A stretch of 64,000 nucleotides of DNA from Extensimonas vulgaris (lineage in GTDB: Bacteria > Pseudomonadota > Gammaproteobacteria > Burkholderiales > Burkholderiaceae_C), in the NCBI RefSeq assembly GCF_003337425.1, contig NZ_QPJU01000004.1:186001-250000 (forward strand), in the 5' to 3' direction. How positions within the stretch are numbered: position 1 is the first letter of the stretch; the number at the start of each line of letters is the position of its first letter. Shown here one piece after another: positions 3,927 through 57,448 of this stretch. A program made the position numbers and the translations under genes. The notes under the pieces were generated by a model, which did no database searches, had not been told where the DNA came from, and worked only from the letters and a program-made list of their open reading frames with translations.

Positions 3927-4619
3927 ATGAAAAAATTCACCATGGGGGCCGTTCTGGCCGCAGCGCTGGCCGTGCCGGCATGGGCCCAGGCCCAAACGGC
4001 CTACCTCTCGGCCACGGTCAATCTGCGCGCCGGACCAGGACAGGTTTATCCGGTCGTCGCCGTGTTGGGCAGTGGCTTGGCGATCAACGTGCAAGGATGC
4101 CTGAGCGATTACAGCTGGTGCGACGTGGTAGCCGGCCCCTACCGCGGCTGGGTGTACGGCGGTTACATCACGTATCCCTACCAAGGAACCTACGTGCCCG
4201 TGCCCGATTACGGCCCGGTGATTGGCATAGGCATCGTCAGTTTCACGCTCGGCGCCTACTGGTACGACCACTATCGCGACCGTCCGTGGTATGCAGAGCG
4301 TCACCGGTGGGAGCATGGCCCCATCCATGATGGGCACCGCCCGCCTCCGCCGCCACCCTATCGGCCATCGCCTGGTTACCAACCCCCACGCTTCCATCCC
4401 CCACGCAATCCGCCGCCCCCTGGGCCGGGGCAGTACCGCACGCAGCCGCCTGAGCCACAAGCACGCCCCGGAGCCGAAGGGCCCCAGCGTTTTCCCGAAG
4501 GGCCAAGACACGACCCCGGTGCCATGCGCCCCCCTCGTGGCGAACCCCGCGGCGAACCCCACGGCGAAGGCCCGCGGCCCGACCGCGGCAGCCCAAGATT
4601 TGGCGAGCGGGGGCATTGA
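3927..4619 (+). CDS. Secreted SH3b-domain protein with proline-rich tail
   Basis: A 230-residue exported protein. The signal peptide MKKFTMGAVLAAALAVPAWA ends with AQAQ. An SH3b fold follows at roughly residues 24-85: TVNLRAGPGQVYPVVAVLGSG, then CLSDYSWCDV with a probable disulfide, then GWVYGGYITY. A hydrophobic glycine-rich stretch around residues 95-110 (GPVIGIGIVSFTLGAYWYDH) and a tail of more than 100 residues rich in Pro, Arg and Gly come after. SH3b domains usually bind peptidoglycan or peptides; the exact role is unknown. ATG 3927 has AAAGGA just upstream. The stop codon at 4617-4619 shares its last base with the first base of the 178-bp repeat, so the C-terminus ends exactly at a mobile element and could have been altered by it. 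Confidence 0.85.
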   Translation: MKKFTMGAVLAAALAVPAWAQAQTAYLSATVNLRAGPGQVYPVVAVLGSGLAINVQGCLSDYSWCDVVAGPYRGWVYGGYITYPYQGTYVPVPDYGPVIGIGIVSFTLGAYWYDHYRDRPWYAERHRWEHGPIHDGHRPPPPPPYRPSPGYQPPRFHPPRNPPPPGPGQYRTQPPEPQARPGAEGPQRFPEGPRHDPGAMRPPRGEPRGEPHGEGPRPDRGSPRFGERGH

Positions 4620-4796
4620 ACCCAGATTGTCCATTAGGCGGTGCTGCGCACCTACGCGGGCGTTGGCGGACGTCTGCCGGTCATTTCGGCCGCGGCTTCG
4701 GCGTCTATGGCACTGGCCATGGACTTCTCACCCGCGACCAAACTGCCACGCCAGCCGCCTCGCCACCATCCCGCGTCCTAATGAACAATCTGGGTT
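4619..4796. repeat. Inverted-repeat element family 2, copy A (178 bp)
   Basis: The ends are near-perfect 20-bp terminal inverted repeats: AACCCAGATTGTCCATTAGG on the left and CCTAATGAACAATCTGGGTT on the right, with one mismatch. An equal-length copy, about nine-tenths identical by eye, is at 56108-56285. The element has no gene. Its first A is the last base of the stop codon of the SH3b gene, and copy B also overlaps a stop codon. This structure fits a MITE-like element. Confidence 0.85.
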
Positions 4797-4925
4797 GAAC
4801 CCAGGTTGTTTGCGCGCCTACGTGGGCGTTGGCGGACGCCGGAAGCTATTTTATTTTGGCTGCCGCTTAGTCGTCCATGGCTCGGCCGTGTGCTGATCTG
4901 TCGTGATCAAACTACTCGGTACGGT
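4797..4925. repeat. Degenerate partial copy of element family 2
   Basis: Directly after copy A the sequence restarts with GAACCCAGGTTGTTTGCG, then CACCTACGTGGGCGTTGG-like, GTCGTCCATGGC and GATCAAACTACTCGG stretches in the same order as family 2, with gaps and many changes and without a recognisable right end. It looks like an older, decayed tandem copy. Confidence 0.5.
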
Positions 4926-5059
4926 TTCCTTGGCTGGGCATGCTGGCTTGGGCGCTCAAGCATGTCTATAACGTCCCCTATCAGGGTGGCGGTGCAAGCA
5001 TGTGGCCCATGCCCAATCATTCGCGGGCGCCGCTGCGGCGGTTGTGAGGTTGGCAGCCC
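4926..5059. other. Intergenic stretch with no assignable gene
   Basis: No start codon, domain or RNA can be supported here. One frame reads LGMLAWALKHVYNVPY and stops at about 5048, which may be a scrap of a lost gene, but it matches nothing I recognise. Confidence 0.3.
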
Positions 5060-5205
5060 ATGCCATTTTTCAGCGCAAAAGGCGGGCGGAGAGAACTTCT
5101 TGAAAAATGCCCGTCAGGCAACCTACAGACCGAGAAGGCGTACCTGTACTGGGTGCGATTTTTCATTCGCTGGCATGGCCGTGCGCGGGATAAATTAGGG
5201 TCAAA
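5060..5205 (+). pseudogene. Fragment of an integron-type tyrosine recombinase (core-binding domain)
   Basis: About 40 residues read LLEKCPSG, then LQTEKAYLYWVRFFIRWHG and ARDKLG. The (R/Q)TE(K/Q)AYxYWVRFFIRxHG pattern is the SAM-like N-terminal domain of IntI and related integrases, in which the next residues are usually a variant of RHPxxMG. No catalytic domain (no R, HxxR or Y box) follows, and the frame runs into unrelated repeat DNA. The ATG at 5060 is only the first in-frame codon. This is a remnant next to two copies of a mobile repeat, not a working enzyme. The identification is from motif memory and needs a profile search. Confidence 0.55.
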
Positions 5206-15374: not shown

Positions 15375-15451
15375 GGGGCGTTAGCTCAGTTGGTCAGAGC
15401 AGAGGACTCATAATCCTTTGGTCGTAGGTTCAAGTCCTACACGCCCTACCA
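15375..15451 (+). tRNA. tRNA with CAT anticodon (tRNA-Met, or lysidine-modified tRNA-Ile2)
   Basis: The 77 bases fold as a complete cloverleaf: acceptor GGGGCGT / ACGCCCT with a G-T first pair, D arm GCTC...GAGC, anticodon stem GAGGA / TCCTT with loop CTCATAA, T arm GTAGG-TTCAAGT-CCTAC, discriminator A and encoded CCA. The anticodon CAT can be elongator Met or, with lysidine, Ile for AUA. The block GGACTCATAATCCTTTGGTC recalls tRNA-Ile2 as much as tRNA-Met, so the acceptor identity is left open. The gene is intact and is the integration site of the following element. Confidence 0.92.
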
Positions 15452-15457
15452 ATAAAA
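15404..15457 (+). repeat. attL, 54-bp direct repeat within and after the tRNA
   Basis: Begins at GGACTCATAATCC in the anticodon arm and runs through CCA plus ATAAAA. Identical to 25099-25152. Integration keeps the tRNA whole because the element supplies the matching 3' part. Confidence 0.93.
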
Positions 15458-15509
15458 TCAAGCACTTAGCGCGGTTTTGCTACATCCTTCGTAGCAAGCA
15501 CTTTTCCCG

Positions 15510-15531
15510 ATGTAAGCGCCATGTAACCGAC
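15510..15531 (+). repeat. Arm-type integrase repeats, left side (2 x 11 bp)
   Basis: ATGTAAGCGCC followed directly by ATGTAACCGAC. The same 11-bp unit occurs three times in tandem next to the other end (24950-24982). Direct 11-bp repeats flanking att sites are the usual arm sites for P4-type integrases. Confidence 0.7.
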
Positions 15532-15592
15532 AACGGCGTAGGGTTATTCGGTTCGGCTTGGTCATGGTGGTTTGCACCAGGGATGCGCAGGC

Positions 15593-15620
15593 ACAAAAAA
15601 CCCGGCACGGTGGCCGGGTT
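15593..15620 (-). terminator. Rho-independent terminator (leftward)
   Basis: On the minus strand AACCCGGC and GCCGGGTT form an 8-bp stem around a 6-base loop, followed by TTTTTTG. It lies 23 bases after the stop codon of the edge gene and closes leftward transcription of the element before attL. Confidence 0.85.
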
Positions 15621-15642
15621 TATGGTGGTGGTCAGCGGTGGG

Positions 15643-15900
15643 CTATGCTGCAACTTCCTCGTATGGTTTGAGGATGCCTTTTTCCCTCGCCCATTCGATC
15701 AGAGTTTCCTCCGACCATCCGCTGGCAGTGACATAGTTGCCGCGCACATCCACAAAATAATAGTCGCCTAGCTCCGCGTGGGCGCTTGTGCCCTGTCGGC
15801 ATCGCTTGAGAGTATCTCCATCATGGGTTTCAGCATAGCGCTTGCAGCGGGCCTCGAGCGCTCGAAGGCTTACCTTCACTTTTCCTTCGGTTTCGGTCAT
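15643..15900 (-). CDS. Hypothetical 85-residue protein at the left edge of the element
   Basis: I do not recognise this protein. It is a compact charged product starting MTETEGKVKVSLRALEARCK, with an aromatic middle (GDYYFVDVRGNYVTASGW) and an acidic end; no signal peptide or membrane segment is seen. The start at 15900 has AAGGAG seven bases upstream, so the longer form from 15924 is not used. It has its own AT-rich promoter (15931-15958) and its own terminator (15593-15620), apart from the replication operon. That is the usual layout of a moron or cargo gene expressed while the element is dormant. A host-directed role is possible but is inference only. Confidence 0.7.
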   Translation of the reverse strand: MTETEGKVKVSLRALEARCKRYAETHDGDTLKRCRQGTSAHAELGDYYFVDVRGNYVTASGWSEETLIEWAREKGILKPYEEVAA

Positions 15901-15930
15901 GGGTGCTCCTTCTTGGTTGTGCACACAAGC

Positions 15931-15958
15931 ATATTATCACATAAACATAAATTATCAA
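15931..15958 (-). promoter_or_regulatory. Sigma-70-like promoter of the edge gene
   Basis: Read on the minus strand: TTGATA, 16-base spacer, TAATAT, about 31 bases before the start codon at 15900. The surrounding 60 bases are very AT-rich compared with the rest of the window. Confidence 0.6.
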
Positions 15959-15991
15959 ACGCACAAATACACAAGCGCAATGTTTGGCGTC

Positions 15992-16234
15992 TCACTCGCG
16001 CGCCAGCAGCGCATGCACGCACTCGAGGGGCGGCAATGGGGCCTCGCGCGGTAGCCGAGCGCGGTGCCAGGGACGCAGCAGTTGCATGTGAACGTGCCGC
16101 ACCACGCGATGCGTCGCGGCCACGCTCAGGCCGTGCAGCGCTGCAATCTGGCGGACGGTGCGGCCCATAGCCCGATCAGCGCGCATCGCTGCGTTTCTAC
16201 GTTCTCGGGCGGCTTGGCTTGGTGCTCGTGGCAT
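15992..16234 (-). CDS. Small helix-turn-helix protein
   Basis: An 80-residue basic protein. Residues 24-50 (GRTVRQIAALHGLSVAATHRVVRHV) form a clear helix-turn-helix of the resolvase / sigma-like kind, with AALHGLS as the turn; the N-terminus has many Arg and Ala residues. It is the last gene of the leftward operon of the element. Possible roles are a late regulator or a DNA-binding accessory factor; it is too short for a recombinase. The start at ATG 16234 has only a weak purine tract upstream. Confidence 0.6.
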   Translation of the reverse strand: MPRAPSQAARERRNAAMRADRAMGRTVRQIAALHGLSVAATHRVVRHVHMQLLRPWHRARLPREAPLPPLECVHALLARE

Positions 16235-16376
16235 TTTTCGTCAGTACCTTGTGGGGCCACTACCTACCCAAAGCGCGGGGGTCGAATTACCCGCGAGGTG
16301 GGAGGTGGGGAAGTACCTTTTTTGCAGCCGGGCATGGTCGCGCCGGGCCGGGCGGTCAGGCCCAGCCCTTGCCTCG

Positions 16377-16793
16377 CTACGCGCTCAGCAAACTCAAGCG
16401 CCGGCACAATCGCCACCAGGTCAGCAAGTCGCCCATGACTGCATCATCGAACGACGTGCACGGGGTGCGCAGCTCGGGCAAGATCGCCCACACGGGCCAC
16501 ACGGGCCACACGGCGCGCCATGGCTGCCGGTCGGCTCGGAAGCAGAGCAGCGGGATGGTGCCCTGCGCGTTCGCCTGCGTCACGGCCTGGGGCCACCACT
16601 CGCGGGCGACCAGGGACAGCGGCGCAGAGCGCGCGCGCTTGCTTTCGATGCACCAGTCGGGCAGGCCCACCAAGTCAGAGTCACCCGCATGCTGCCGGAC
16701 ACGGCGGGCAATGCGGCGCCCGGTCAGTTCGGACAACAGGGCGGCAAGCTCGCGCTCGCCACTCTGCCCCTTGGTGCGGCTCAGGCTGCCCAT
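16377..16793 (-). CDS. PDDEXK-type nuclease (Holliday-junction-resolvase-like)
   Basis: A 138-residue protein. The N-terminus SRTKGQSGERELAALLSELTG carries the Glu of the first helix of archaeal Hjc-like resolvases. The core DSDLVGLPDWCIESKRARSA near residues 41-60 provides the Asp and the E-x-K of the PD-(D/E)xK fold. It should be a metal-dependent endonuclease processing branched or replication DNA of the element; the exact substrate is inference. ATG 16793 overlaps the end of the exonuclease gene by 13 bases. The much longer open frame upstream is a shadow of that gene. The C-terminal third is Trp-rich. Confidence 0.7.
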   Translation of the reverse strand: MGSLSRTKGQSGERELAALLSELTGRRIARRVRQHAGDSDLVGLPDWCIESKRARSAPLSLVAREWWPQAVTQANAQGTIPLLCFRADRQPWRAVWPVWPVWAILPELRTPCTSFDDAVMGDLLTWWRLCRRLSLLSA

Positions 16794-17512
16794 GGCTCGC
16801 ACCCCTCGCCGGTCATGACGCGCCACGCGCTGCGCACAGCCTGCACGTCGCGGGCGCAGTATTCGGCAATCTCTGTGTGGCGCCCAGCAAGCCAAAGATC
16901 GAGGACTGCGGCGCCGGTGGTGCCGTCGGCTTTCGGGCTGGCAACCCCAAGCGCCCGGCAAAGACGGTCGAGGCTGATTTTGTCGCGCAGGCCAGCGAAC
17001 AGCACCATGGTGTCGCCGTAGTCCCTGCCAACCCGCGCCAGTGGGCCGGGCATCCAACCGGGCAGCTTGATGCGGCTCACCCAGAGTCTGGCGCGCAAGA
17101 AGGGCAAGTCGAACCCGCCGATGTTGTGGCCCACCAGGTGCGGGCGCACGCCGTCGAACCATGGCGCGGCAGGGTCGCTCGGATCAGGACGGCGGGCTTC
17201 CAGCAGCGCGTTGATCGCCTTGAGCGCGCGCAGCAGAAAATCGCGCTCAGACTCTTCGAGCGTGCGCACCACGGCCACGGCGTCGGCATCGTCAAGTGCG
17301 AATCCTACGCAGCAGACTTCGCCAGCGGCGGGATCGAGCGCTTGCCGACGGTAGGCGTCTTCGACGGCGGCAGGGCCGGACTCAGCCCACCAGGTCGCGA
17401 TGCTGTCTTCGCGCTTCAGCGTGCCAGGCGGGCGCACGGATTGCCGCGCCTGCTCGCGGGCGTCGGGGTGCTGGGATGGGACGGTTTCCAGGTCTATGTG
17501 CAAGATCGTCAT
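16781..17512 (-). CDS. DnaQ-like 3'-5' exonuclease (DEDDy)
   Basis: A 243-residue protein with the three Exo motifs of the DEDD superfamily: Exo I ILHIDLET at residues 3-10 (Asp and Glu), Exo II VGHNIGGFDLPFL near residue 126 (Asp), and Exo III EIAEYCARDVQAVRSAWRV near residue 223, where Tyr four residues before Asp makes it the DEDDy type. It resembles exonucleases of phage replication modules related to the 3'-5' domain of family A/B polymerases. It lies ten bases after the SSB-like gene and overlaps the PDDEXK gene. An AAGGCGG ribosome site precedes ATG 17512. Confidence 0.8.
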   Translation of the reverse strand: MTILHIDLETVPSQHPDAREQARQSVRPPGTLKREDSIATWWAESGPAAVEDAYRRQALDPAAGEVCCVGFALDDADAVAVVRTLEESERDFLLRALKAINALLEARRPDPSDPAAPWFDGVRPHLVGHNIGGFDLPFLRARLWVSRIKLPGWMPGPLARVGRDYGDTMVLFAGLRDKISLDRLCRALGVASPKADGTTGAAVLDLWLAGRHTEIAEYCARDVQAVRSAWRVMTGEGCEPWAA

Positions 17513-17522
17513 GGCGGCCGCC

Positions 17523-18155
17523 TTAGAACGGAATGTCCGAATCCATATCGTCGAAGCCCGACGATGCTGCGGCCCCAGCCTGGGCAGCAGGTGCGGCAGC
17601 AGGTGCAGCGCGGCGGGTCAGCTCCCGCCACTCGGGGCTTGCCTCAATTTGCTCGCGCAGCCGCTGGGGCAGCAGCGGCAGGTCTTCGCCGCAGGTCGGG
17701 TCGGACAAGTTGAAGATCACGGGTGCAATGACGGGCGGCGGGGGCTGCATGCCCCTGGGCAGGGGCGATATGCCAAGGATGTTTGCGTACTCCCGTTCGC
17801 CGCGCTGCACGTGCACCAAATTAAGCAAGGCGGGCGCGTTGATTAGCTTCTCAACGTCGAACCCGGTCAACTCCGTGGGCGAGAATGGGCGCCCGCGCCA
17901 GCTTTCGAGGAGGGTGCGCAAGGCGGATTTTTTGTGCAGGCTCGCCGTGAACCTTCTGGACACGGTGAACGGTTCGCCGTCGCTGCGCAGCTCGGCAAGC
18001 TGCCAAGTCAGCAACAGCTTGCGGGCGCTTTTGGTTTCGCCGTTGAAGTCTGATTGCTGGGTGCCAAGATCGACGATGCGCGAGCATCGGGCGGGCTGGG
18101 GGCCGCTGGGCGGCAGTTCAAAGGTTGCGGTTGAATTTTCTGCAATGGTCAGCAT
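17523..18155 (-). CDS. Candidate single-strand DNA-binding protein of the replication module
   Basis: A 210-residue protein with no family I can name with certainty. The body has a beta-rich look (STATFELPPSGPQPARCSRIVDLGTQ, KSARKLLLTWQL, FTVSRRFTASL). A Pro/Ala linker follows, and the protein ends with FDDMDSDIPF, very like the acidic DDDIPF tail through which SSB recruits partner proteins. Position between replication genes and nucleases supports an SSB or annealing-type role, as for DUF669-like phage proteins. AAAGAGG precedes ATG 18155. It overlaps the preceding small gene by 38 bases in another frame. Confidence 0.6.
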   Translation of the reverse strand: MLTIAENSTATFELPPSGPQPARCSRIVDLGTQQSDFNGETKSARKLLLTWQLAELRSDGEPFTVSRRFTASLHKKSALRTLLESWRGRPFSPTELTGFDVEKLINAPALLNLVHVQRGEREYANILGISPLPRGMQPPPPVIAPVIFNLSDPTCGEDLPLLPQRLREQIEASPEWRELTRRAAPAAAPAAQAGAAASSGFDDMDSDIPF

Positions 18156-18366
18156 TGGGTGCCTCTTTGGATTGGTTGATGCGGTGCTCGGTCTGGGTTC
18201 GGTCTGTCGCGGTCGGGTATCTGGTGCGGCGCCAGCTCGCGCAGGCGGCGTCGCGCGCTTGGTACTGGTGCAGTGGGATCACGTGCATGGGGTCGGTCGC
18301 GGCGCACACGTGCCGGTCAACGTGCGCCAGCTTGTGGTGTGCGCACGATGCACACGGGCGGCTCAT
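18118..18366 (-). CDS. Small Cys/His-rich protein
   Basis: An 82-residue protein starting MSRPCASCAHHKLAHVDRHVC. The CxxC-x2-H and further Cys and His residues could bind zinc. The function is unknown. Its start codon overlaps the preceding stop codon as ATGA (18363-18366), which supports the chosen start, and its 3' end overlaps the SSB-like gene. It resembles a reduced version of the C-terminal Cys motif of its upstream neighbour. Confidence 0.6.
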   Translation of the reverse strand: MSRPCASCAHHKLAHVDRHVCAATDPMHVIPLHQYQARDAACASWRRTRYPTATDRTQTEHRINQSKEAPNADHCRKFNRNL

Positions 18367-18983
18367 GCTTCGCCCCAGCTCGGGCAGCGCTGCAACGTCG
18401 CCACCAGCGGCTCGCGCATCCCGCCTGGGGCATGGCAGCGCCACGCGCCGGGCCTGCCGCGCAGGTGGCGGCACTCAAGGCACAGCCGCCTATCGTCGCC
18501 GTCGCGGTCGCGCAGCAGCAGCGTGTCGGCCATGCGCCCAGCCTCGTGGTCAGGCAGCCCCAGCCGCTCGAAGCGCTCGCAGCGCTGCGCCATGGTCGCC
18601 AGCTCTGCATCGCTCGCTGGCGCGTGATTCCATGACTTCGGCGCCTGGGGCTTGGCGCTGTACGCCGGGCACGTGGCGGCGTGGCCCTCGGGCGGCCACA
18701 CGATGCCGAAGTGCTCGCGCAGGCCAGCCGCTACGGGCTGCGAGCAGGTCGCATAGGGCAGGCGGTGGGCGCAGTCTGCGCAGGCGCGCACGCAAACATC
18801 GGGCGCAGTTTGCTTTGTGCGCTCTGGTGGTGTTTCAGGTGTATCAGGTGTGCAGCCCAATGTTTGCGCGGGTTTCGCCTGATACACCGGGTTTTGCGCA
18901 GGTGTATCAGGTGTATCGGGTGGGCCTACTGGCGCAGGTTGCGCGGCGGCGGTGCGGGCCGCAAGGTAGTCGGCGAGGCTCAT
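18363..18983 (-). CDS. Cys-rich zinc-finger-like protein with TPDTPDTP repeats
   Basis: A 206-residue protein of unknown function. The N-terminal 50 residues are a Pro/Thr/Asp linker with DTPDTP and PDTPETP repeats, encoded by a short DNA motif that also occurs inverted in the DUF927 gene. The rest has paired cysteines: CVRACADC near residue 67, ATCPAY near residue 105, LCLECRHLRG near residue 167 and RC in the last ten residues, suggesting two zinc sites. The start overlaps the DUF927 stop codon as ATGA. Similar Cys-rich proteins accompany primase genes in prophages, but no activity can be assigned. Confidence 0.65.
   Translation of the reverse strand: MSLADYLAARTAAAQPAPVGPPDTPDTPAQNPVYQAKPAQTLGCTPDTPETPPERTKQTAPDVCVRACADCAHRLPYATCSQPVAAGLREHFGIVWPPEGHAATCPAYSAKPQAPKSWNHAPASDAELATMAQRCERFERLGLPDHEAGRMADTLLLRDRDGDDRRLCLECRHLRGRPGAWRCHAPGGMREPLVATLQRCPSWGEA
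18829..18922. repeat. Iterated GGTGTATCAGG motif, cluster 1
   Basis: The minus strand reads CCTGATACACC units. The 27 bases at 18829-18855 are the exact reverse complement of 20798-20824. Further partial units lie at 18878-18888 and 18900-18921. All are within the start of the Cys-rich protein gene. Confidence 0.75.
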
Positions 18984-20875
18984 TGCGCGCCCTCCACCAG
19001 CTTCGTCGGGTCGATCACGTACACGCGCACGCCACGGCCATCGATGCGCCGGAAGACAGAGCGCTTGCCATCCGCACCAGGCGCAGGCAGCGCGCCCACG
19101 GATGCAAGAACATCCGTCACCAACTTGGTGTCGAAGCCCTTGGCAGCCTCGGCAAGCCCGCTCGCGGTGAACAAGTAGCGCACACCATCGCCGGTGCTTT
19201 CGCGCCAGCCTGCACGGTCGGGAATGGGCCGCGCATCTTCTGGCGCATCAAGGCCTTGGAACCGTGCGGCACCGTAGCGGTCGAGGAACGCACCCACGGC
19301 GGCAAGCACTTTGCCGCGCTCATCGTTTTCGGCGGTGCCGCCTCGTGCCTCGTGCCACAGTTGCAGCGCCAGCCCTGCGGCCTCTACAGCGTGCCCCTGG
19401 GGCCACGGGGTCAGGCCGTACTCAATCGCCAGCTCGCCCGCAAGTGCGATCAAGGCCAGCCGGGCGGCGGCGCGCTTGACCTGACCTTGTGCGCCAGGCG
19501 GATTGAACTCGGGCAGCGCCTTGACGGCTTCGAGCGCCTGCCCAAAGTCGCGTTCGTCGTGCGCCAGGCGGTCGAGGAGGGCGCGGCCTGCGGTGCCATA
19601 GTTTTCGGCGGCAGCGGTTTTGAGCGCGTCGGAAAACGCGCGGCCATCGGCGTGGCCGTGCAGCGCATCCCACGCTCCATACTGGCGCGCCACGGGAATA
19701 TCGAGCAGGCGCACGGCCTGCCCAGCCTTGGCACGCTGCCCGCCTTCGAGCATGGCCGTGGCAAGGGTCTTTTCGCCGGTCGAGAGAATGCAGCAGCGCC
19801 AGTGCCGGACGGTGCGGGCGGCGCCGGTGCGCGTCGCGCGCTGCTTGCCCGTTCCGTTTGTGAGCGCGTAGGCGATCAGGCCGATCTCGCGCGGCTCGCA
19901 TTCTGATATTTCGTCGAGCGGAAGCAGGCAGTCGTTCGACAGTGCGGCGGCGCCCTCCATCCCGTTCGCCGTGCTGCGCCAGCTACGCCGAAACTCGGGG
20001 CCGCCCCACACGGAACGCGCGGCATCAAGGCACGATGTTTTGCCGGTCGAGGATTCGCCCACCAGGTGCACGCCGCCACCTTCGGCATGCACCTTCGCCA
20101 GCAGCGGGCCAGCGAAGGCCGTCGATAGCGCCAGCACGAGCATGGGGTTGTCCTGCGCCAGCGTCGCCACCGAATCGCGCCAGGCCGTGAGCGTGCCCTT
20201 CTGCGTGAAGGCGTGTTCTGCGGCTTCTTCGGCTTGGAACACCACGGTGTCAGGCGTGGGGCCGATGGTCGCGTCGGGCAGAACGAAGTTTTTCCCGTGC
20301 CAGCCGACGGACAAAGCGCAGGTCACGCGGCGCTGCGGCGTTTCGCCCTGCAAATACATTGCAAGGTGGTTCTGCGCAGCCGGGTTGATGCGCAGCCCAG
20401 CCGCCAAAAGCTCGCCGCGCAGCTCGTCGCCGCGCCCAGCGAGTAGGCGCATGGGCATGGCCCACGTCTTCCAGCGGCCTAGGGTGTTCTGGAACCTGAG
20501 CAGGCGGCCAAAGCTGCCCTCGCGCACGTCGGACAAAACGGCCTCGACGTGTAGCGGGTCGCACACCCACGTTTGCGCTGGGCGGACAAGCGGGGTCTTC
20601 GGCGTGCCCACGTTTTTCATGAAAAAGTGCCACACGCCGGGCCGCTGGCGCTTGTCTTCGGCGTCAGTCCACCAGGTGCCAAAAACCCGGTAGCAGGGGC
20701 GATCCTCTTCGCCTGGGACTTGCGGCGCTGCGCCTGATACACCAGATACACCAGCAGATTCGGCGGTGTATCGGGAGGAACCCGCGCCAGTGCTTGCCTG
20801 CACACCTGATACACCTGAAACACCTTCGCGTGTATCACTGCGATCAAAGGTCTCGAAAACGACGTGTTCATCCAT
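18980..20875 (-). CDS. DUF927-domain ATPase (replicative helicase-like)
   Basis: A 631-residue P-loop protein. The DUF927 part includes CALSVGWHGKNFVLPDATIG near residue 195, Walker A LVGESSTGKTSCLDAA near residue 282, Walker B CLLPLDEISECEPREIG near residue 328, and an arginine-rich RATRTGAARTVRHWRCCILST region near residue 355. These proteins act with a TOPRIM primase in phage and satellite replication modules, and a helicase or loader role is likely by context. Residues 15-60 are a flexible linker with GVSGVSG repeats made by the inverted form of the iterated DNA motif. ATG 20875 is chosen; it overlaps the primase gene by 8 bases. Confidence 0.75.
   Translation of the reverse strand: MDEHVVFETFDRSDTREGVSGVSGVQASTGAGSSRYTAESAGVSGVSGAAPQVPGEEDRPCYRVFGTWWTDAEDKRQRPGVWHFFMKNVGTPKTPLVRPAQTWVCDPLHVEAVLSDVREGSFGRLLRFQNTLGRWKTWAMPMRLLAGRGDELRGELLAAGLRINPAAQNHLAMYLQGETPQRRVTCALSVGWHGKNFVLPDATIGPTPDTVVFQAEEAAEHAFTQKGTLTAWRDSVATLAQDNPMLVLALSTAFAGPLLAKVHAEGGGVHLVGESSTGKTSCLDAARSVWGGPEFRRSWRSTANGMEGAAALSNDCLLPLDEISECEPREIGLIAYALTNGTGKQRATRTGAARTVRHWRCCILSTGEKTLATAMLEGGQRAKAGQAVRLLDIPVARQYGAWDALHGHADGRAFSDALKTAAAENYGTAGRALLDRLAHDERDFGQALEAVKALPEFNPPGAQGQVKRAAARLALIALAGELAIEYGLTPWPQGHAVEAAGLALQLWHEARGGTAENDERGKVLAAVGAFLDRYGAARFQGLDAPEDARPIPDRAGWRESTGDGVRYLFTASGLAEAAKGFDTKLVTDVLASVGALPAPGADGKRSVFRRIDGRGVRVYVIDPTKLVEGAQ
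20730..20824. repeat. Iterated CCTGATACACC motif, cluster 2 (inverted relative to cluster 1)
   Basis: Plus-strand units CCTGATACACC lie at about 20732-20742 and 20805-20815, with a further ACCAGATACACC at 20741-20752. The 27 bases at 20798-20824 form a perfect inverted repeat with 18829-18855. The cluster lies in the start of the DUF927 gene. Confidence 0.75.
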
Positions 20876-21770
20876 GGCGCCCCTCCGTTTCCAGGAACAG
20901 CGCCAGGTCGGCAAAGTCGCTCAGTTCCAGCGGCGCACCTGCGGGCCACGCCGGACGGGCGAGCGTGCCGCCTACAGCGCTGGCGGCTTCGCGGGCTTTG
21001 ACAAGGCCGGGGTTTCCAGGCGTGCAGCGATCATCGTCGGCACACAGAACCAGTTCTGCACCTGGGAATCGCTGGCGCGCGGCCTGGGCCACGTGTAGCA
21101 GGTTCCCGCAATCGAGCGCAGCAAGCACGGCGGCACCGGGAAAGAAGTGCTGCGCCACGGCCATCGCGGTAGCCCAGCCCTCGGCAACGGCGATCAGCTT
21201 GGGCGCTGCAAGGTCGCCCACCACGTGAATGAAGTGGCCGGTCTTCGCCATGCCGGTGGTGAAACGCTTCTCGCCACTGGGGGCGATGAATTGCAGCCCG
21301 TGAACGGCGCCGTCGAAGTCCTGCACGCAGAGCGCCAGCCGGTCGCCATCCTGCCGCGCAAGCCCTGGGGGGATGCGCTTTTTCAGCAGGTAGGGATGAA
21401 GCGGCTCTGCGGGCGGCAGGGATGCCCACTTGCGCGCTGCGCGCTCTGCGGCAGCTTGCCGGGCCTGGGCTTCGGCCTGAGAGCGTTGCGCCTGCATGGT
21501 GCGCACGCGCTCGCGGTGGGCGACCTCTTCGGCAGCGGTCAGCTTGCGGCCTATGTCAGCGCGCCAGCTTTGCCAGCCCAACCCGTCACGGTGGTTTTGC
21601 ACGCCACCAGCCGGGATGCCGTCAAGGTGTAGTAGATAGCTGCCATCGCTGCGCCCATGCTTGCCCACGGCGTCGCAGCGGTGAATTTTCCCGTCCGCGA
21701 TTATTTGGCCGGGCGGTATCAACCCGCGCGCTTCGAGCACGCGGCGGAATTGGTCGAGGTAGGCATTCAT
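20868..21770 (-). CDS. TOPRIM-domain primase
   Basis: A 300-residue protein. The N-terminal part (DQFRRVLEARGLIPPGQIIADGKIHRCDAVG) resembles the zinc-binding or substrate-binding start of P4-alpha-like primases, with HRC near residue 31. A charged coiled segment near residues 85-120 follows. The TOPRIM domain begins near residue 190: IAVAEGWATAMAVAQHF (the conserved Glu) and ELVLCADDDRCTPGNPG near residue 240 (the DxD). It should prime replication of the element together with the DUF927 ATPase. ATG 21770 is chosen as the family-like start; 11 further upstream codons are doubtful. It is the first gene of the replication operon. Confidence 0.8.
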   Translation of the reverse strand: MNAYLDQFRRVLEARGLIPPGQIIADGKIHRCDAVGKHGRSDGSYLLHLDGIPAGGVQNHRDGLGWQSWRADIGRKLTAAEEVAHRERVRTMQAQRSQAEAQARQAAAERAARKWASLPPAEPLHPYLLKKRIPPGLARQDGDRLALCVQDFDGAVHGLQFIAPSGEKRFTTGMAKTGHFIHVVGDLAAPKLIAVAEGWATAMAVAQHFFPGAAVLAALDCGNLLHVAQAARQRFPGAELVLCADDDRCTPGNPGLVKAREAASAVGGTLARPAWPAGAPLELSDFADLALFLETEGRHG

Positions 21771-21828
21771 GCGCAACCTCGCATTCCAATTGCCACGGCG
21801 CAAAACACTCCAATTTGAAAACCCACGC

Positions 21829-21856
21829 TTGCGAAAACGAACGCAGTCGTTACAAT
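21829..21856 (+). promoter_or_regulatory. Rightward promoter opposing the replication operon
   Basis: TTGCGA, 16-base spacer, TACAAT on the + strand, in the leader of the leftward primase gene. The expected start is near 21863. No + strand gene follows, only a terminator at 21890-21919. Confidence 0.5.
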
Positions 21857-21862
21857 CAGGTC

Positions 21863-21919
21863 TTCAGTCGGATTTTTGGAAACCGTTATTGCCGCCCATA
21901 GCCGGGCGGCATTTTTTTT
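21863..21919 (+). ncRNA. Predicted short antisense RNA over the replication-operon leader
   Basis: A promoter-like pair (21829-21856) and a strong terminator (21890-21919) enclose about 55 bases with no reading frame. A transcript would be antisense to the leader of the primase mRNA, as in countertranscript control of plasmid replication. This is predicted from sequence signals only. Confidence 0.35.
21890..21919 (+). terminator. Rho-independent terminator (rightward)
   Basis: TGCCGCCC, loop ATAGCC, GGGCGGCA, then TTTTTTTT on the + strand: an 8-bp stem, 6-base loop and T tract. It points against the leftward genes on both sides, so it must serve a + strand transcript. Confidence 0.8.
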
Positions 21920-21944
21920 GATTGCTCGCATGGCGGCGCTCCAA

Positions 21945-22148
21945 TCAGGCAGCGCCCAGCAGTTTTTTCAGCTCGGCAGTGGGCCAAAGCAGGCGGCCAT
22001 GCAGGCGAATGGGCCGGATGGGGCCATTTTCAAAGCACGCCCACAATCGCAATGTCTGCGGCTTGCGCCCCAAGTGATATGCCGCGCACTCGGTCGGTAC
22101 GGCGTGGCGGGTTTCATTCGCCAGCGGGGGATATTCTTGCACTCGCAT
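21945..22148 (-). CDS. Small HTH protein (AlpA / excisionase-like)
   Basis: A 67-residue protein: VPTECAAYHLGRKPQTLRLWACFENGPIRPIRLHGRLLWPTAELKKLLGAA. The layout, a helix-turn-helix, then a wing with RPIRLHGRLLWP, then a short C-terminal helix after a WP(T)AEL motif, is that of MerR-like AlpA or excisionase proteins of integrated elements. It may control integrase direction or the replication operon. GAAAGGA stands eight bases before ATG 22148. Its upstream region (22149-22252) carries three symmetric sites. Confidence 0.75.
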   Translation of the reverse strand: MRVQEYPPLANETRHAVPTECAAYHLGRKPQTLRLWACFENGPIRPIRLHGRLLWPTAELKKLLGAA

Positions 22149-22160
22149 CGGTAGTCCTTT

Positions 22161-22180
22161 CCGTCAATTGGTGTTGACGG
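22161..22180. promoter_or_regulatory. Perfect dyad in the leader of the AlpA-like gene
   Basis: CCGTCAA, 6 bases, TTGACGG: a perfect 7-bp inverted repeat directly upstream of the ribosome site of the 22148 gene. It could be an operator or an mRNA hairpin. Confidence 0.55.
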
Positions 22181-22210
22181 ATGGAATGTGCCGATGGGCG
22201 CAAGGAAAGT

Positions 22211-22245
22211 CATTGCACCTGCAATGGTGGGCGTTGCAGTTGCAA
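22211..22245. promoter_or_regulatory. Tandem operator-like dyads, 21 bp centre to centre
   Basis: CATTGCA-CC-TGCAATG (22211-22226) and TTGCA-GT-TGCAA (22234-22245) share the core TTGCA-NN-TGCAA and have centres 21 bp apart, two helical turns. That is the usual geometry for cooperative binding of a repressor dimer pair. They lie between the two regulatory genes of the element. Confidence 0.65.
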
Positions 22246-22252
22246 TGCTGCG

Positions 22253-22894
22253 CTATTTGTTTTGAAGCGCTCTGTTGGCTTCTGCAAACTTCCCGTCGGT
22301 GGTGCGCTTGGGTAGGGCGTATTCGTCTTCCAGGTACGCGACAAGCTCGGCTTGGGACTTGAAGGGGCCTTTGTCCATGATGGTTTCCAGCATGGCGCCG
22401 ATGAGCACCAACAGCGTTTGGCGCTCGCGCTCGCCCAGCTCTGGTTTTGGTTTTGGCAATTCGCCAGCATGGGCGCCGATGCGGTATTCGCGCTCAAAGC
22501 GGTCTAGCTCTTCGCGGACTATGACCAGGTCTTTTGCGGTGAATATCTGCGGGGGGTCAAAATCGAATCCCACGTCCCCAACCAATGCTTCGTCTCCCGA
22601 AACCGGGGGAAGCACAATATATGGCCTGCAACCATCGCCAAAAGCGCCGCGTAAATCTTCTGGCGTCAAGCCCAGCGGCAACATGGTTTCAGTCCATTGG
22701 TTTGGCGTGTTTTTGGTGGCGCTCTTTTCACGCCAGGCAATGCAAATCTTTCGCGCGGGTCTTACCGATATTCGCAGCGCTTCATTCTCGCCATAATCAA
22801 TCAGGTCTTCAATTGTGCAGCCCCATCGCCGGGCAACCTCTTCGAGGGTGAACCAATCTCTTTTGGGTAGCTGGGGGCGGTCTTTGTCGCTCAT
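22253..22894 (-). CDS. Putative HTH-containing protein of the element
   Basis: A 213-residue protein. The N-terminus LPKRDWFTLEEVARRWGCTIEDLIDYGENEALRI is a MerR-type helix-turn-helix start (WFTLEEVARRWG). The middle has an acidic stretch and GFDFDPPQIFTAKDLVIVREELDRFE; the C-terminal half is helical (GERERQTLLVLIGAMLETIMDKGPFKSQAELVAYLEDEY). I cannot name the family, though similar 200-residue proteins occur in prophages and integrated elements. It is a candidate master regulator for the neighbouring operators. Its base composition is visibly less GC-rich than its neighbours, suggesting separate origin. Confidence 0.6.
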   Translation of the reverse strand: MSDKDRPQLPKRDWFTLEEVARRWGCTIEDLIDYGENEALRISVRPARKICIAWREKSATKNTPNQWTETMLPLGLTPEDLRGAFGDGCRPYIVLPPVSGDEALVGDVGFDFDPPQIFTAKDLVIVREELDRFEREYRIGAHAGELPKPKPELGERERQTLLVLIGAMLETIMDKGPFKSQAELVAYLEDEYALPKRTTDGKFAEANRALQNK

Positions 22895-22991
22895 GGTGCG
22901 TCCTGCGCGCAACCTGCATTCGGGTGCCAGCGCCAGGCCGGGGCAGGAACCCGGCTTTTCACCCCGTCGGGCTAGGCGCTGGCGAAACGGG

Positions 22992-23285
22992 TCACGCCGT
23001 CGCTGCGTCGCTCTGTTCGATGCGCAGGCGCAGCTTGCCGCCCACGGCCTGGGCGAATCGCTCCACGGTGCGCAGCGATGGCAGGGCGCGGCCTGATTCC
23101 ATGCGCGCCACGGCGCTTTGCGTGGTGCCCATGCGTTGCGCCACGTCGGCTTGGGTCAGCCCTGCGCGGGTACGCGCTTCGATCAGCGCGCGGGCAATGG
23201 CGTATTCATCGGCCATGGCATCAAAGGCGGCTTTGGCCTGGGCATCGGCGAGCAGCTTTTCTTCGAGGGCGTCAAGGGTTTGCAT
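22992..23285 (-). CDS. XRE-family antitoxin (HigA-like)
   Basis: A 97-residue protein with a Cro/CI-type HTH at residues 41-85 (GLTQADVAQRMGTTQSAVARMESGRALPSLRTVERFAQAVG). The N-terminal helix (EEKLLADAQAKAAFDAMADEYAIARALIEART) is typical of HTH antitoxins paired with RelE/HigB toxins. It follows the toxin gene with a 14-base overlap, toxin first, which is the HigBA order. It should neutralise the toxin and repress the pair. Confidence 0.85.
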   Translation of the reverse strand: MQTLDALEEKLLADAQAKAAFDAMADEYAIARALIEARTRAGLTQADVAQRMGTTQSAVARMESGRALPSLRTVERFAQAVGGKLRLRIEQSDAATA

Positions 23286-23604
23286 CGTTCATCCTTCGCA
23301 TGCGCAGTAGCGCGGTGTCAATGGCACGTCGTGGCGTTTTCTCGGTCTTTTTGGTGAAGACGTGCAGCACGGTCAGCCGCTGCCCAGCGCGTGCCACATA
23401 GACGGCGCGGGCGATGCCATCGCGCCCGTGCATGCGTATCTCCCACAGTTTGCCTTCGAGCGGGCGCACGTGGGGCATACCTACGTTCAGCGGGCCGAAT
23501 TCGATCAACAGCCGCCGGATATGCACAAAGCGGGCGCGAATGTCAGGCGGTGTCGCCAGCAGCTCAGTTTCTGCCTCGGGCAGCAAGTCCACTATCCACG
23601 CCAT
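23272..23604 (-). CDS. RelE/HigB-family toxin (Gp49-like)
   Basis: A 110-residue basic protein: MAWIVDLLPEAETELLATPPDIRARF, then GMPHVRPLEGKLWEIRMHGRDGIARAVYVARAGQRLTVLHVFTKKTEKTPRRAIDTALLRM. The KLWEIR, ARAVYVA, VLHVFTKKTEKTP and A(I)xxALxRM segments are the phage-derived Gp49-like / HigB signature, with the Lys/Arg cluster in FTKKTEKTPRR. Such toxins cleave mRNA on the ribosome. With the following antitoxin it would stabilise the element in its host. Confidence 0.87.
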   Translation of the reverse strand: MAWIVDLLPEAETELLATPPDIRARFVHIRRLLIEFGPLNVGMPHVRPLEGKLWEIRMHGRDGIARAVYVARAGQRLTVLHVFTKKTEKTPRRAIDTALLRMRRMNDANP

Positions 23605-23633
23605 GATGTTATCTTTTTTTTGCTATTCATGGA

Positions 23634-24932
23634 TCACTGCACCACGCGCAGGCGCTGCGCGTCTTCCTGGGGCTGGGCGATGCCTGCGGCCTCGAGGATG
23701 GCGCCCTCGATCTTGGTGTGCCACATTCGCAGCAAGTCCAGCGGGCGGGCGCGGTAGTGCTTTTCGGCAATGGCGCTCGGCTTGTGCCCCATGATCTGCG
23801 CGACTACGCCAGTCGGTGCCTCCACCCATTCTGCGAGCGTGCCAAAACTGCGGCGCAGCCCGTGCAGGGTGACGTGGGGCACGCCAGCGGTGGCACACGT
23901 CCTTGTCAATTGGTGGTTCGGGGACGTGATAGGGCCGTCGGTGCGGGCCGTCATGAATACCCACGCGCCACGACGCGGCAGCGCTTGCAGCAGGGTGGAC
24001 ACATAGGGCGTCAAGGGGATGGTGCGCTCACCCTCTACCTTGTCACGGATGCGCATGCTCTTCCAGGTGAAGTCCAGGTCTTCCCAGCGCAGGTCGCGCA
24101 GCTCGCCGGGGCGGGCGCCGGCCAGCAGCAGCGCTTGCAGGTAGGCGGCAATGGCCGGTTCTTGCTGGCGCGCGGCGGCGAACCAGGCGGGCAGTTGCTC
24201 GCGCTGTAGCGCATCGCCTTTCGCCTTTGGGGTGCCCAACTGCTCGCGGGCCTTGCGCGACTTGGCTGCATTGGCGTCTTTGATGGCGGGGCCGTAGTCG
24301 GGATGTGCGGCGCACCAGCTGACGAAGGAGCGCAGCAGGCGCAGCCCCAGCCGGGCCACGGTGGGGCGCTCGGGCGCGTGGCGCTTCGCCCAGCCCTCCA
24401 CGGCGGCGGCGGTCAGGGTGGACAAGGGCTTGTCCAACAGCTCGCGCAGCGGGCCGGGTGCGGTGACGCCAGGGCCGCCCTTGCCGCGTGTTTTGGGTTC
24501 GCCGCCAGGCGCCACCATGGCGCGGTGGTCGCGGTAGTGCAGAGCGCCCCATGCGGGCTTGCGCTCTTCGCAGTAGGCGTCCCACACGTCAAGCGCGCGC
24601 ACCTGGGCGGCTTGCTGTAGTGCACGGGCAGCGGCGGCTTGCTGCGCGCGCTCGCGCTTGACTTCGCGCGGGTCGTGCCCTTGGTCTATCTGCTGGCGCA
24701 GCTCGCGCGCTTTTGCGCGTGCCTGGGGCAGGGGCCAGGTGCTGGGGTGGCCGATGGTGACGCGCAGCGGTGCGCCGTTTGCACGGGCCTGAAAGATGTA
24801 GGACGCGGCGCCGTTGCTGGTAACGCGCAGCCCCAAGCCGGGCGCGTCGGCGTCCCAAAGGAACGCCTGGGCCTTGCCAGGCGGGCAGGTGAAGTTCGCC
24901 ACGCGCGCGGCGGTGAAATTGATCTTGTCCAC
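23634..24932 (-). CDS. P4-type tyrosine integrase
   Basis: A protein of about 432 residues. The N-terminal arm-binding domain (DUF4102-like) shows KINFTAARVANF and FLWDADAPGLGLRVTSNGAASYIFQ; the core-binding domain lies near residues 95-190; the catalytic domain shows Arg in LLAGARPGELRDLRWEDLD near residue 285, HGLRRSFGTLAEW near residue 375, and the Tyr in IAEKHYRARPLDLL near residue 410. GTG 24932 is preferred because GGAAAGGGG stands just before it; the ATG at 24962 adds ten residues and lies inside the arm-type repeats. The gene is at the end of the element opposite the tRNA and reads inward. Confidence 0.93.
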   Translation of the reverse strand: MDKINFTAARVANFTCPPGKAQAFLWDADAPGLGLRVTSNGAASYIFQARANGAPLRVTIGHPSTWPLPQARAKARELRQQIDQGHDPREVKRERAQQAAAARALQQAAQVRALDVWDAYCEERKPAWGALHYRDHRAMVAPGGEPKTRGKGGPGVTAPGPLRELLDKPLSTLTAAAVEGWAKRHAPERPTVARLGLRLLRSFVSWCAAHPDYGPAIKDANAAKSRKAREQLGTPKAKGDALQREQLPAWFAAARQQEPAIAAYLQALLLAGARPGELRDLRWEDLDFTWKSMRIRDKVEGERTIPLTPYVSTLLQALPRRGAWVFMTARTDGPITSPNHQLTRTCATAGVPHVTLHGLRRSFGTLAEWVEAPTGVVAQIMGHKPSAIAEKHYRARPLDLLRMWHTKIEGAILEAAGIAQPQEDAQRLRVVQ

Positions 24933-24949
24933 GGTGCTCGCCCCTTTCC

Positions 24950-24982
24950 ATGTAATCGCCATGTAATCGCTGTGTAAGCGGA
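24950..24982 (+). repeat. Arm-type integrase repeats, right side (3 x 11 bp)
   Basis: ATGTAATCGCC, ATGTAATCGCT and GTGTAAGCGGA in direct tandem, matching the two copies near attL. They overlap the promoter and leader of the integrase gene, which would let bound integrase repress its own gene. Confidence 0.75.
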
Positions 24983-25098
24983 TTCTATCGAAAAAGGCGA
25001 ATCTTTATCAACGATAACGCTTGAAGTGTGTGCTGCAACTCGTTGATTTACTAGGGAAACGTCAACATCGGTCAACAGGGGCAAAAGTGGGGTTGAGC

Positions 25099-25152
25099 GG
25101 ACTCATAATCCTTTGGTCGTAGGTTCAAGTCCTACACGCCCTACCAATAAAA
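25099..25152 (+). repeat. attR, 54-bp direct repeat with a tRNA 3' fragment
   Basis: Identical to 15404-15457. It carries the last 48 bases of the tRNA (anticodon arm to CCA) without D arm or acceptor 5' strand, so it is not a gene. It marks the right end of the element. Confidence 0.93.
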
Positions 25153-26696: not shown

Positions 26697-28765
26697 CCCT
26701 GCAGGTGGAAAAGTCCTGGATTGACCCTTTGCAAGAGGCCGTCTGGCTCGTCGATGCGAAATCCTTGTGCATTGTGCAGTCAAACGAAGCGGCCGCGCGG
26801 CTGCTTGGGTGGTCCTGTGACGAAATGCGGGGGATGCCGGTGTTGCGCCTTGCTGTCACGCCCGAGGATCAGGCGTTTTGGGGTGGCACTGCAGAAGAAA
26901 TTGCGCGGGGAATCGACTCCTATACCCATGTGCTGCGGGCCGACGGCGCATGGGTAGCCGTGGCGCGCCGGGTGGCGCCCTTGCAGGCCTTCGACGGCAG
27001 CGGTTATTTGGTGCTCAGCATGCTCGATCGCACGGAGCAGGAGAACACCGAGCGTGAATTGGAAACCCTGCTGGCCGAGTTGCGTGCCACGCTCGATTCG
27101 GCTGCGGAAGGGATTTTGGTGTGCGACCTGCAGGGCCGCATTCGCGCTTTCAATCGGCGCATGGCACAAATCTGGGATATTCCCGAGCGATTGTTGGTGG
27201 AGCGCAATGACCAGGCGGTGTTTGCGCACATGGCAGCCCAGGTCACCGACAAAAAGGCCTATAAAAAACGGCTTGCCGAGCTGGTCAAAAACCCAGAGGC
27301 GCAAGCCTGCGACGTTCTGCATTTGCGCCATGGCACCGTAGTCGAGCGTCTGGTGGTGCCGCAGTTGCAGCGCGGCGAACTGGCGGGGTGGGTTTATTCT
27401 TTTCGCGACATCACACAGCAGCAGGCTGATCGGCAGCGCATTCAGGAGCTTGCCTACACCGACGCGCTGACGGGGTTGCCCAACTACCTGCAGTTTGCGC
27501 AGCGGGTAGAGGCCGCTATCCAGGAACCTTCTGAAAAGGCGTCGCGCTTTGCCATTGTTTTTCTCGATCTGGACCGCTTCAAGATCGTGAACGATTCCCT
27601 GGGGCATTCCTTTGGCGACAGGGTGTTGCAACTGGTGGCCGAGCGTATCGCAGCCTGTCTGCGTCAGACGGATATGCTGTGTCGTCTGGGCGGGGACGAG
27701 TTCTTGCTTTATCTGCACGAGGCCGATGCGACCGCAGCAGAAGGTGTGGCGCGTCGCATCCTGGAAAGCATGCTGCGTCCCTGCGAGCTCGACGGCATGG
27801 GCTTTTCGGTGATGTGCAGCATGGGCATTGCGTTATATCCACAAGACGGCTCCACGCTGGATGAACTCATCAAACAGGCAGACACGGCGATGTACCGTGT
27901 CAAAGACCGGGGGCGCGGCAACTATAGCTTTTACCAGCCGCAGATGAACGCGCATCTGCTGTCACGCATGAAACTGGAGCATGCGATGCGCCAAGGGCTG
28001 GAGGCGCAGCGGTTTTTTGTGCACTATCAACCGCAGGTGTGTCTGGCTACGGGTGGTATCACGGGGGCCGAGGCTTTGCTGCGCTGGAATGATCCCGAGC
28101 TTGGGGCGGTGTCGCCCGGGCAGTTCATCCCTCTTGCAGAAGAGTCCGGCTTTATCGTTGTTCTGGGCGCCTGGGTCATGGAGCAGGCAATACGCGAAGC
28201 ATCGCAGTGGATGCACGCTGGACGCCCGCTTGTTGTCTCCGTCAATGTTTCGACACTGGAGTTTCGTCAGCCGGATTTTGTCGAACGCGTCACACGGCTG
28301 CTCGCAGTGCATCAATTGCCTCCTTCATTGCTGGAGCTCGAACTGACAGAATCGATTATGTTGCAGGACGCAGTGGAAATGGAGCAGCGGCTGCAACAAC
28401 TGGCTGAGCTTGGGGTCAATCTGGCCATCGATGATTTCGGCACCGGCTATTCCAACCTCGCTTACCTCAAAAAGCTGCCTATCCACAAACTCAAGATCGA
28501 CCAGTCTTTCATTCGCGGCCTACCTGACGACGAGGGCGATATGGCAATCGTGCAGGCCATCGTGGGCATGGGGCAGGCCCTGCACATCGAAGTGGTGGCG
28601 GAAGGGGTGGAAACCATCGCTCAGCGGCTGGCATTGCAGCACTTGCACTGCGGTCATTTCCAGGGTTTTTTATGTGCACCGGCGCTATCCGCCAGAGAAT
28701 TCTGGCAAAGGCTCGCGCACCCTGGTGCAGCGACGCAGGATGCGCATGCCGATCCATTGTGCTGA
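26693..28765 (+). CDS. PAS-GGDEF-EAL c-di-GMP signalling protein
   Basis: A 690-residue protein with no membrane segment. Two PAS-like domains come first (residues about 10-110, EAVWLVDAKSLCIVQSNEAAARLLGWS; and about 125-240, TLDSAAEGILVCDLQGRIRAFNRRMAQIW). The GGDEF domain spans about 255-420 with DLDRFKIVNDSLGH and an intact RLGGDEF near residue 330. The EAL domain spans about 430-680 with GAEALLRW near residue 458, NVSTLEF, ELTESIML, IDDFGTGYSNLAYLKKLP and KIDQSFI, so both metal and general-base positions look present. It may be able to make and break c-di-GMP. ATG 26693 overlaps the stop codon of the HD-GYP gene. Confidence 0.93.
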   Translation: MTLQVEKSWIDPLQEAVWLVDAKSLCIVQSNEAAARLLGWSCDEMRGMPVLRLAVTPEDQAFWGGTAEEIARGIDSYTHVLRADGAWVAVARRVAPLQAFDGSGYLVLSMLDRTEQENTERELETLLAELRATLDSAAEGILVCDLQGRIRAFNRRMAQIWDIPERLLVERNDQAVFAHMAAQVTDKKAYKKRLAELVKNPEAQACDVLHLRHGTVVERLVVPQLQRGELAGWVYSFRDITQQQADRQRIQELAYTDALTGLPNYLQFAQRVEAAIQEPSEKASRFAIVFLDLDRFKIVNDSLGHSFGDRVLQLVAERIAACLRQTDMLCRLGGDEFLLYLHEADATAAEGVARRILESMLRPCELDGMGFSVMCSMGIALYPQDGSTLDELIKQADTAMYRVKDRGRGNYSFYQPQMNAHLLSRMKLEHAMRQGLEAQRFFVHYQPQVCLATGGITGAEALLRWNDPELGAVSPGQFIPLAEESGFIVVLGAWVMEQAIREASQWMHAGRPLVVSVNVSTLEFRQPDFVERVTRLLAVHQLPPSLLELELTESIMLQDAVEMEQRLQQLAELGVNLAIDDFGTGYSNLAYLKKLPIHKLKIDQSFIRGLPDDEGDMAIVQAIVGMGQALHIEVVAEGVETIAQRLALQHLHCGHFQGFLCAPALSAREFWQRLAHPGAATQDAHADPLC

Positions 28766-28775
28766 CTTGCCGGCT

Positions 28776-29105: not shown

Positions 29106-29131
29106 GCGCAGCTTGCATCATTGTTCCGGTT

Positions 29132-56078: not shown

Positions 56079-56107
56079 GCGGATGCTTTTTCAACGGCAG
56101 TGGGATA

Positions 56108-57316: not shown

Positions 57317-57448
57317 GATGGAAACCTCCTTGCTATTTGAGTCCCAAACCATACCCAAAAAGTTTTACATCGCTGAGCCTGAGTCGAGAAACCCCCATGC
57401 CACGATCGGCTACGAAAAGCCCTGCGCGATGGGGGTTGATGCTTGGTT

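Follow-up and report, generated by a model that had tools for sequence, protein, structure and literature searches.

The 64-kb stretch of DNA analysed here, referred to as the window, carries two copies of a short repeat, each touching the stop codon of a neighbouring gene. Copy A follows an SH3b-domain gene (3927-4619, plus strand; Pfam SH3_3, E 6.8e-9) that ends with the TGA at 4617-4619, and copy B adjoins an aldo/keto reductase gene (56285-57358, minus strand; Pfam Aldo_ket_red, E 2.4e-79) that ends with the TGA read from 56287 to 56285. The original prediction had described a 178-bp element at 4619-4796 and 56108-56285 with its edge on a stop codon in both copies. Both copies are real and lie at these positions, the overlap is confirmed for each (base 4619, the first of copy A, is the final A of the SH3b stop codon, and base 56285, the last of copy B, is the A of the reductase TGA), and Pfam agrees with the two gene names; the true unit, however, is a 174-bp core, which starts with CCCAGATTGTCC (longer form CCCAGATTGT) and finishes with ACAATCTGGG, the 178 bp being reached by counting 2 bp of the target duplication on either side along with it. 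With up to three mismatches allowed, the window has four matches to the 18-bp end sequences, whereas shuffles predict 0.04.

The core of copy A (4621-4794; this and all following coordinates of copies and flanks refer to the plus strand) has terminal inverted repeats of about 20 bp and forms one long hairpin. The same 5 bp, TTGAA, flank it on the left (4616-4620), where they include the SH3b stop codon, and on the right (4795-4799), where they are shared with a decayed second element of the same family that lies head-to-tail with copy A (4800 to approximately 4913); the latter was recognised from a 71% match and a local alignment, and its right end is unrecognisable. Inside this decayed neighbour there is also a sigma-70-like promoter match (4848-4877, minus strand, 9 of 12 positions, none expected). 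The core of copy B (56110-56283) has unequal flanks, ATAAA on the left (56105-56109) and TTCAA on the right (56284-56288), the second of which reads TTGAA outward from the reductase gene and contains its stop codon. Since the outermost 2 bp on either side are part of the 5-bp target, the overlap with stop codons sits in host-derived DNA. The repeat is a miniature inverted-repeat transposable element (MITE), a non-autonomous DNA transposon: it is short, occurs in many copies, encodes no transposase of its own, and presents terminal inverted repeats, a fixed 5-bp duplication and empty sites.

Other repeats are present in the window. A direct repeat of 57 nt (98%) at 25096-25152 reproduces the 3' part of a tRNA-Met gene (15375-15451), and the interval 15375-25152 looks like a 9.7-kb element that has integrated in the tRNA gene and is bounded by att-like ends. 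A 187-nt direct repeat (92%) lies at 1552-1738 and 28757-28943, and inverted repeats around AGCCTGTCGGACTTTGG lie at 28940-29112 and 58983-59080; related stretches adjoin MITE copies in the own genome and in sister loci.

Copies, target site and movement

The own genome (Extensimonas, Comamonadaceae) contains at least 43 distinct copies with 85% identity or more, a lower bound, the best 40 of 127 candidates having been scored. It also holds 135 matches to the end sequence at three mismatches or fewer, hence further elements have the same ends. Together with 30 copies from two congeners, taken as Extensimonas sp. H3M7-6 and Extensimonas perlucida and counted only from the loci examined, these yield 73 copies with readable flanks. 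An exact 5-bp duplication is found at 58 of them (TTGAA 25, TTAAA 12, TTCAA 11, TTTAA 4, ATGAT 3, ATGAA 2, ATAAA 1), with TTNAA in 52 of the 58, and is missing from copy B and 14 others. When all loci are taken, i.e. 131 elements whose ends agree while their interiors, 78 to 390 bp long, are of several unrelated kinds, 105 show exact duplications, every one of them WTNAW and 90 of them TTNAA.

Beyond the 5 bp there is a weak symmetric preference for T at -9 and G at -8 (41% each). GGG stands directly outside the target at 15 of 237 ends, about twice the 6.5 expected (26 tandem ends omitted), and yields CTGGGTTNAACCCAG-like junctions (L008, L020, L024, L026, L029, L031, L035, L042, L055, L061, L070, L078, L127 and L140); these may be remnants of lost tandem neighbours. 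Head-to-tail copies have one 5-bp target in common, as copy A and its decayed neighbour do, and in four tandem pairs 163 to 173 of the 174 positions are identical, which suggests local duplication.

Concerning its occurrence among genomes, the family is patchy. Among 40 sampled genomes, the own one included (best 20 matches per genome), many copies occur only in the three Extensimonas, the others giving one full-length match of 74% and one of 30 bp. In a class-wide sample of 369 (best two matches per genome, light scoring) a long match appears only in the own genome and in one other (73% over 163 bp), with three further matches of 21 to 40 bp. A scan of genome contigs, whose pattern needs a perfect 20-bp end and thus favours well-kept copies, gave among the matches listed the hosts of related cores outside Extensimonas: Gallionellaceae, Thiomonas, Tibeticola, Rhodoferax, Casimicrobiaceae and one unclassified MAG. 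The 26 cores from outside the genus are 68 to 80% identical to copy A. No match to the element was found in phage records, nor to one 32-letter pattern in viral contigs.

The same ends also occur with other interiors. A Nitrosomonadales MAG (JACREB; L075, L086, L089 and others) contains a 112-bp MITE with these ends and an unrelated interior, of which 20 copies were read, and a Chitinispirillales MAG (JAITUP; L073, L101, L107, L144, L148, L153), outside Proteobacteria, shows the same 20-bp ends with TTNAA-type flanks and differing interiors. The Chitinispirillales occurrences could be misbinned contigs or the result of wide transfer; long ORFs lie near the end in L073 and L101, and by eye they are not transposase-like.

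An IncP plasmid for which an exact empty site exists demonstrates that the element moves. The sole match among 72,556 plasmid records is pYKBU009 (LC623927; L233), in which a 171-bp core with TTTAA on either side lies between kfrB and kfrA (2501-2681). Among the 15 records listed, 14 have a kfrB-kfrA stretch of 1525 bases instead of 1701 with identical flanks, and in pUO1 the empty site reproduces the joined flank with a single TTTAA, letter for letter. Over 162 aligned bases the plasmid copy shares 94% identity with copies of E. perlucida, hence the insertion is recent. A conjugative plasmid can therefore carry the element, and pYKBU009 is a possible carrier of it between families. Within the genus, own copy L032, with TTAAA on both sides, corresponds to a single TTAAA at the matching site of congener locus L079, the right flanks being 96% identical over 400 bp and the left ones alike for only about 27 bp; in the comparison of all copies with the sister genomes this pair was usable and L034/L160 roughly so, the repeats having matched each other elsewhere.

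Stop codons and gene ends

TGA terminates 39 of the 44 genes called in the window. A gene stop lies inside the duplication at 13 of the 73 copies, namely 12 with a called gene plus copy A, which was added by hand because the gene caller, a codon-usage model trained on the 64-kb window, missed the proline-rich SH3b gene. At the other 60 no called stop falls in the duplication, the very outcome that the original prediction had named as speaking against its reading. As background, a stop overlaps 10 of 92 unoccupied non-coding TTNAA sites, or 8 of 68 with a stricter method. The stricter test used 65 of the 73 copies, eight tandem second copies being omitted, and left out 18 copies called coding; of the two window copies, the caller took A as non-coding and B as coding. 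With both copies of the window left out, stops are overlapped by 11 of 46 copies against 8 of 68 sites (p=0.12), and with both included the difference becomes borderline (p=0.049); the copies are moreover not fully independent, given the near-identical tandem pairs and some possibly inherited sites (e.g. L006 and L053). Copies thus overlap stop codons not clearly more often than these sites do, any real excess being mild.

Nearness to gene 3' ends behaves differently. A 3' end lies within 60 bp of 26 of 47 copies (copy A included) and of 14 of 68 background sites (p=1.6e-4), and after removal of the copies that overlap stops the figures are 15 of 36 and 6 of 60 (p=6e-4); for gene 5' ends they are 6 of 47 copies and 16 of 68 sites. 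The 3' excess persists among copies off stops and is thus independent of the stop codon. Tolerance of insertions at 3' ends, with no aim involved, would explain their accumulation there.

The original prediction had offered two readings of the contact with stop codons. According to one of them the element targets TGA-like sites at gene ends, and of this the sequence preference holds, the target being WTNAW, chiefly TTNAA, with TTGAA as its commonest form. Because TTGAA contains TGA, overlap with stops is mainly a by-product of the target; some insertions would likewise land exactly on host stops through TTAAA and TTTAA, which hold TAA, and leave the protein unchanged. An element that recognises more than the TTNAA core and is aimed at stop codons or gene ends could draw on the 13 copies with a stop in the duplication, the borderline p value obtained with the window copies and the crowding near 3' ends, but it is improbable: the excess at stops is no longer significant once the two copies that prompted the idea are omitted, the 3' excess is independent of stop contact, the other target preferences (T at -9, G at -8, some GGG outside) are weak, and purging of insertions from genes and promoters also predicts a 3' excess. 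The second reading, in which the end of the element supplies the stop codon and so reshapes C-termini, had in its favour that both copies of the window touch a stop, two out of two, and it can hardly be maintained. The TGA at copy A belongs to the duplicated host target outside the core, and the comparison of C-termini, which had been proposed as a check, shows that the SH3b orthologues of both congeners, in which the element is absent, finish with the same ...GH* at GGGCATTGA, on the same TGA. For the reductase, whose C-terminus is close in length to those of its homologues, the comparison carries little weight, only distant homologues (46-51% identity) being available. The striking coincidence of repeat end and stop codon is accounted for by the target sequence, which cautions against over-reading similar cases.

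The probable link to IS1380

Two IS1380 elements in other genomes of the same order, L174 (1491 bp, TTAAA on both sides) and L204 (1493 bp, ATTAA on both sides), have both ends like those of the MITE, and their transposases exceed the curated NCBIfam cut-off for IS1380. Among the 15 transposase loci scanned, L205 and L211 show both ends with unequal flanks (TTCAA/ATGAA and ATAAC/GTTAA, respectively), L173, L203, L206 and L208 a single MITE-type end and L209 a poor end at most, and no MITE-type end was found in L207, L210, L212, L213, L218 and L219. In L163, a MAG contig, one perfect end lies beside the start of an IS1380 transposase, and one end likewise adjoins an IS1380 transposase or a fragment of one in L173 (a relic in congener G001), L203 and L208; the fragments of L173 and L208 match the IS1380 profile below the cut-off, as expected of fragments.

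Hence, the autonomous elements have matching ends, and their target and duplication length match as well; for a mover in the own genome, the profile search gave no IS1380 transposase above the cut-off. Its only match to the IS1380 profile (23.6 bits) is a 398-aa transposase that lies above the cut-off of the IS4 family and was rejected as the autonomous partner. Poor matches to the MITE ends (up to three mismatches) flank this gene 1585 bp apart with unequal flanks (CTGAA/CGGAA), and they were taken as chance or as a decayed element containing another IS. By eye, only the outer 17-20 bp or so are common to the MITE and the examined IS1380 elements, hence the MITE did not arise from these by simple deletion.

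Since the ends and the type of target recur in IS1380 elements elsewhere in the order, an IS1380 transposase probably moves the element, which is very probably a non-autonomous MITE of an IS1380-family insertion sequence, moved in trans and overlapping stop codons by way of its TTNAA target. Against this stand the failure to find a present-day mover in the own genome, the unrelated interior, the two loci with unequal flanks and the six without ends, the 15 of 73 copies (copy B among them) that have no exact duplication, and the fact that L163 is a MAG contig and can be misbinned. The transposase would be made elsewhere, from an element with ends of the same type (CCCAGATT..CCATTAG), and would bind the terminal inverted repeats and place the 174-bp core in a 5-bp WTNAW target, mostly TTNAA, duplicating this target in the process.

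ISEcp1 and ISPme1 (PMC9330008) as well as IS1247a (PMC3281130) belong to the IS1380 family. The likeness described here was judged from L174 and L204 rather than from ISEcp1 or other named members; it consists of the same type of terminal repeat and of 5-bp WTNAW duplications, and unlike these two elements the MITE has no transposase and an unrelated interior. IS1380 transposases form the outgroup in a piggyBac tree (PMC10813416); the piggyBac superfamily duplicates the T/A-rich TTAA, 4 bp as compared with the 5-bp TTNAA of the MITE.

Well-known examples of bacterial MITEs that combine a long stem-loop with a target duplication are Correia/NEMIS, RUP and ERIC (PMC2229807); these share with the present element a size of about 100-200 bp, terminal inverted repeats, a target duplication and a transcript predicted to form a single long stem-loop, but have mostly TA termini where ours has CCC/GGG ends, a 5-bp WTNAW duplication and IS1380 ends. 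MITEAba12 was tied to its mover in a comparable way, through shared inverted repeats and duplication size, and one of its copies lies at a gene 3' end; it differs in its 9-bp duplications and ISAba12 ends, and in that a copy of it created a premature stop, whereas here the stop is the host's own (PMC6382973). In the literature searched, which takes in few subscription journals and lies outside ISfinder, the available text (including PMC4133298, PMC3542288, PMC3281130, PMC9330008 and PMC10813416) yielded no IS1380-linked MITE.

The whole-element hairpin

The core is a full-length imperfect palindrome, and on either strand the whole element folds into one stem (z -6.8 and -8.4). In an alignment of 25 cores (26 representatives of 96 family members, minus the longer L160 and L161, plus L081), both partners of 28 of the 56 pairs change without loss of pairing, a number reached in 0 of 500 shuffles and compared with 2-8 pairs in slid controls. 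Of the cells, 96.8% are paired; shuffles reach 88.8% and slid controls no more than 43.7%, a comparison in which the structure is favoured over its slid versions, since the consensus was derived from the same alignment. These compensatory changes span bacterial families.

Events were counted by simple parsimony on one tree of 83 distinct cores. There are 46 double changes from one Watson-Crick pair to another on single branches, as compared with 11-16 in slid controls when every kind of double change is included. Where a single change breaks a Watson-Crick pair, the outcome is G-U in 36 cases, A-C in 35 and another combination in 45, and against these 116 departures stand only 12 single-step returns to pairing. 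Given that G-U and A-C are equal, there is no sign of protected RNA pairing in individual copies; pairing is kept between lineages and seemingly not at each landing site.

The suggestion of the original prediction that the hairpin may work as a terminator finds no support: stable as it is, the scan for terminators found no T-run behind the main hairpin of either copy, and the two minor terminator-like sites near each copy (0.6 and 0.5 expected) are not formed by it. More broadly, the hairpin could be a functional RNA in transcripts, i.e. a terminator, an mRNA 3' stabiliser or an RNase III site as in NEMIS, and its very stable fold, the strong covariation and the location near gene 3' ends agree with that, yet we consider this unlikely. 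Pairing protected in the RNA of one strand would not be expected to leave G-U and A-C at par, a gene terminates within 60 bp of the left end in 16 cases (17 if copy A is counted) and within that distance of the right end in 17, which favours no strand, the main hairpin is not followed by a T-run, and the copy A region (4500-5100) has no match in Rfam at E up to 1. The choice is rather whether the DNA hairpin matters for spread or the two arms correct each other by template switching during replication, either of which would probably account for the pairing that is kept. Arm-to-arm template switching (quasi-palindrome correction) as the sole source of the covariation, with no selection on the hairpin, is a serious candidate, though we do not hold it to be probable. 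It fits the surplus of double changes over the slid controls, several of them on very short branches, and the equality of the G-U and A-C intermediates; at odds with it are the departures from pairing, common and seldom restored, and some stem columns that by eye stay unpaired in the consensus structure. Tentatively, the DNA hairpin might be among the features recognised by the IS1380 transposase or by the replication fork, so that foldable lineages spread, the core evolves through compensatory change from one burst to the next, and landed copies decay free of RNA constraint; we would then be looking at one shape-dependent passenger that has moved between Comamonadaceae, Gallionellaceae, Thiomonas and others, with IncP plasmids as one carrier.

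The well-resolved outcome is a new IS1380-linked MITE family, whose element is of an ordinary kind; it connects a MITE family of betaproteobacteria with IS1380, of which ISEcp1 is a member, and comes with a target rule, WTNAW and chiefly TTNAA, drawn from more than 100 insertions. Its most noteworthy parts, worth following, are the insertion in the IncP plasmid and the covarying whole-element hairpin, which raises the question of whether the palindromy of MITEs is selected at transposition or is only a by-product of correction between the arms.
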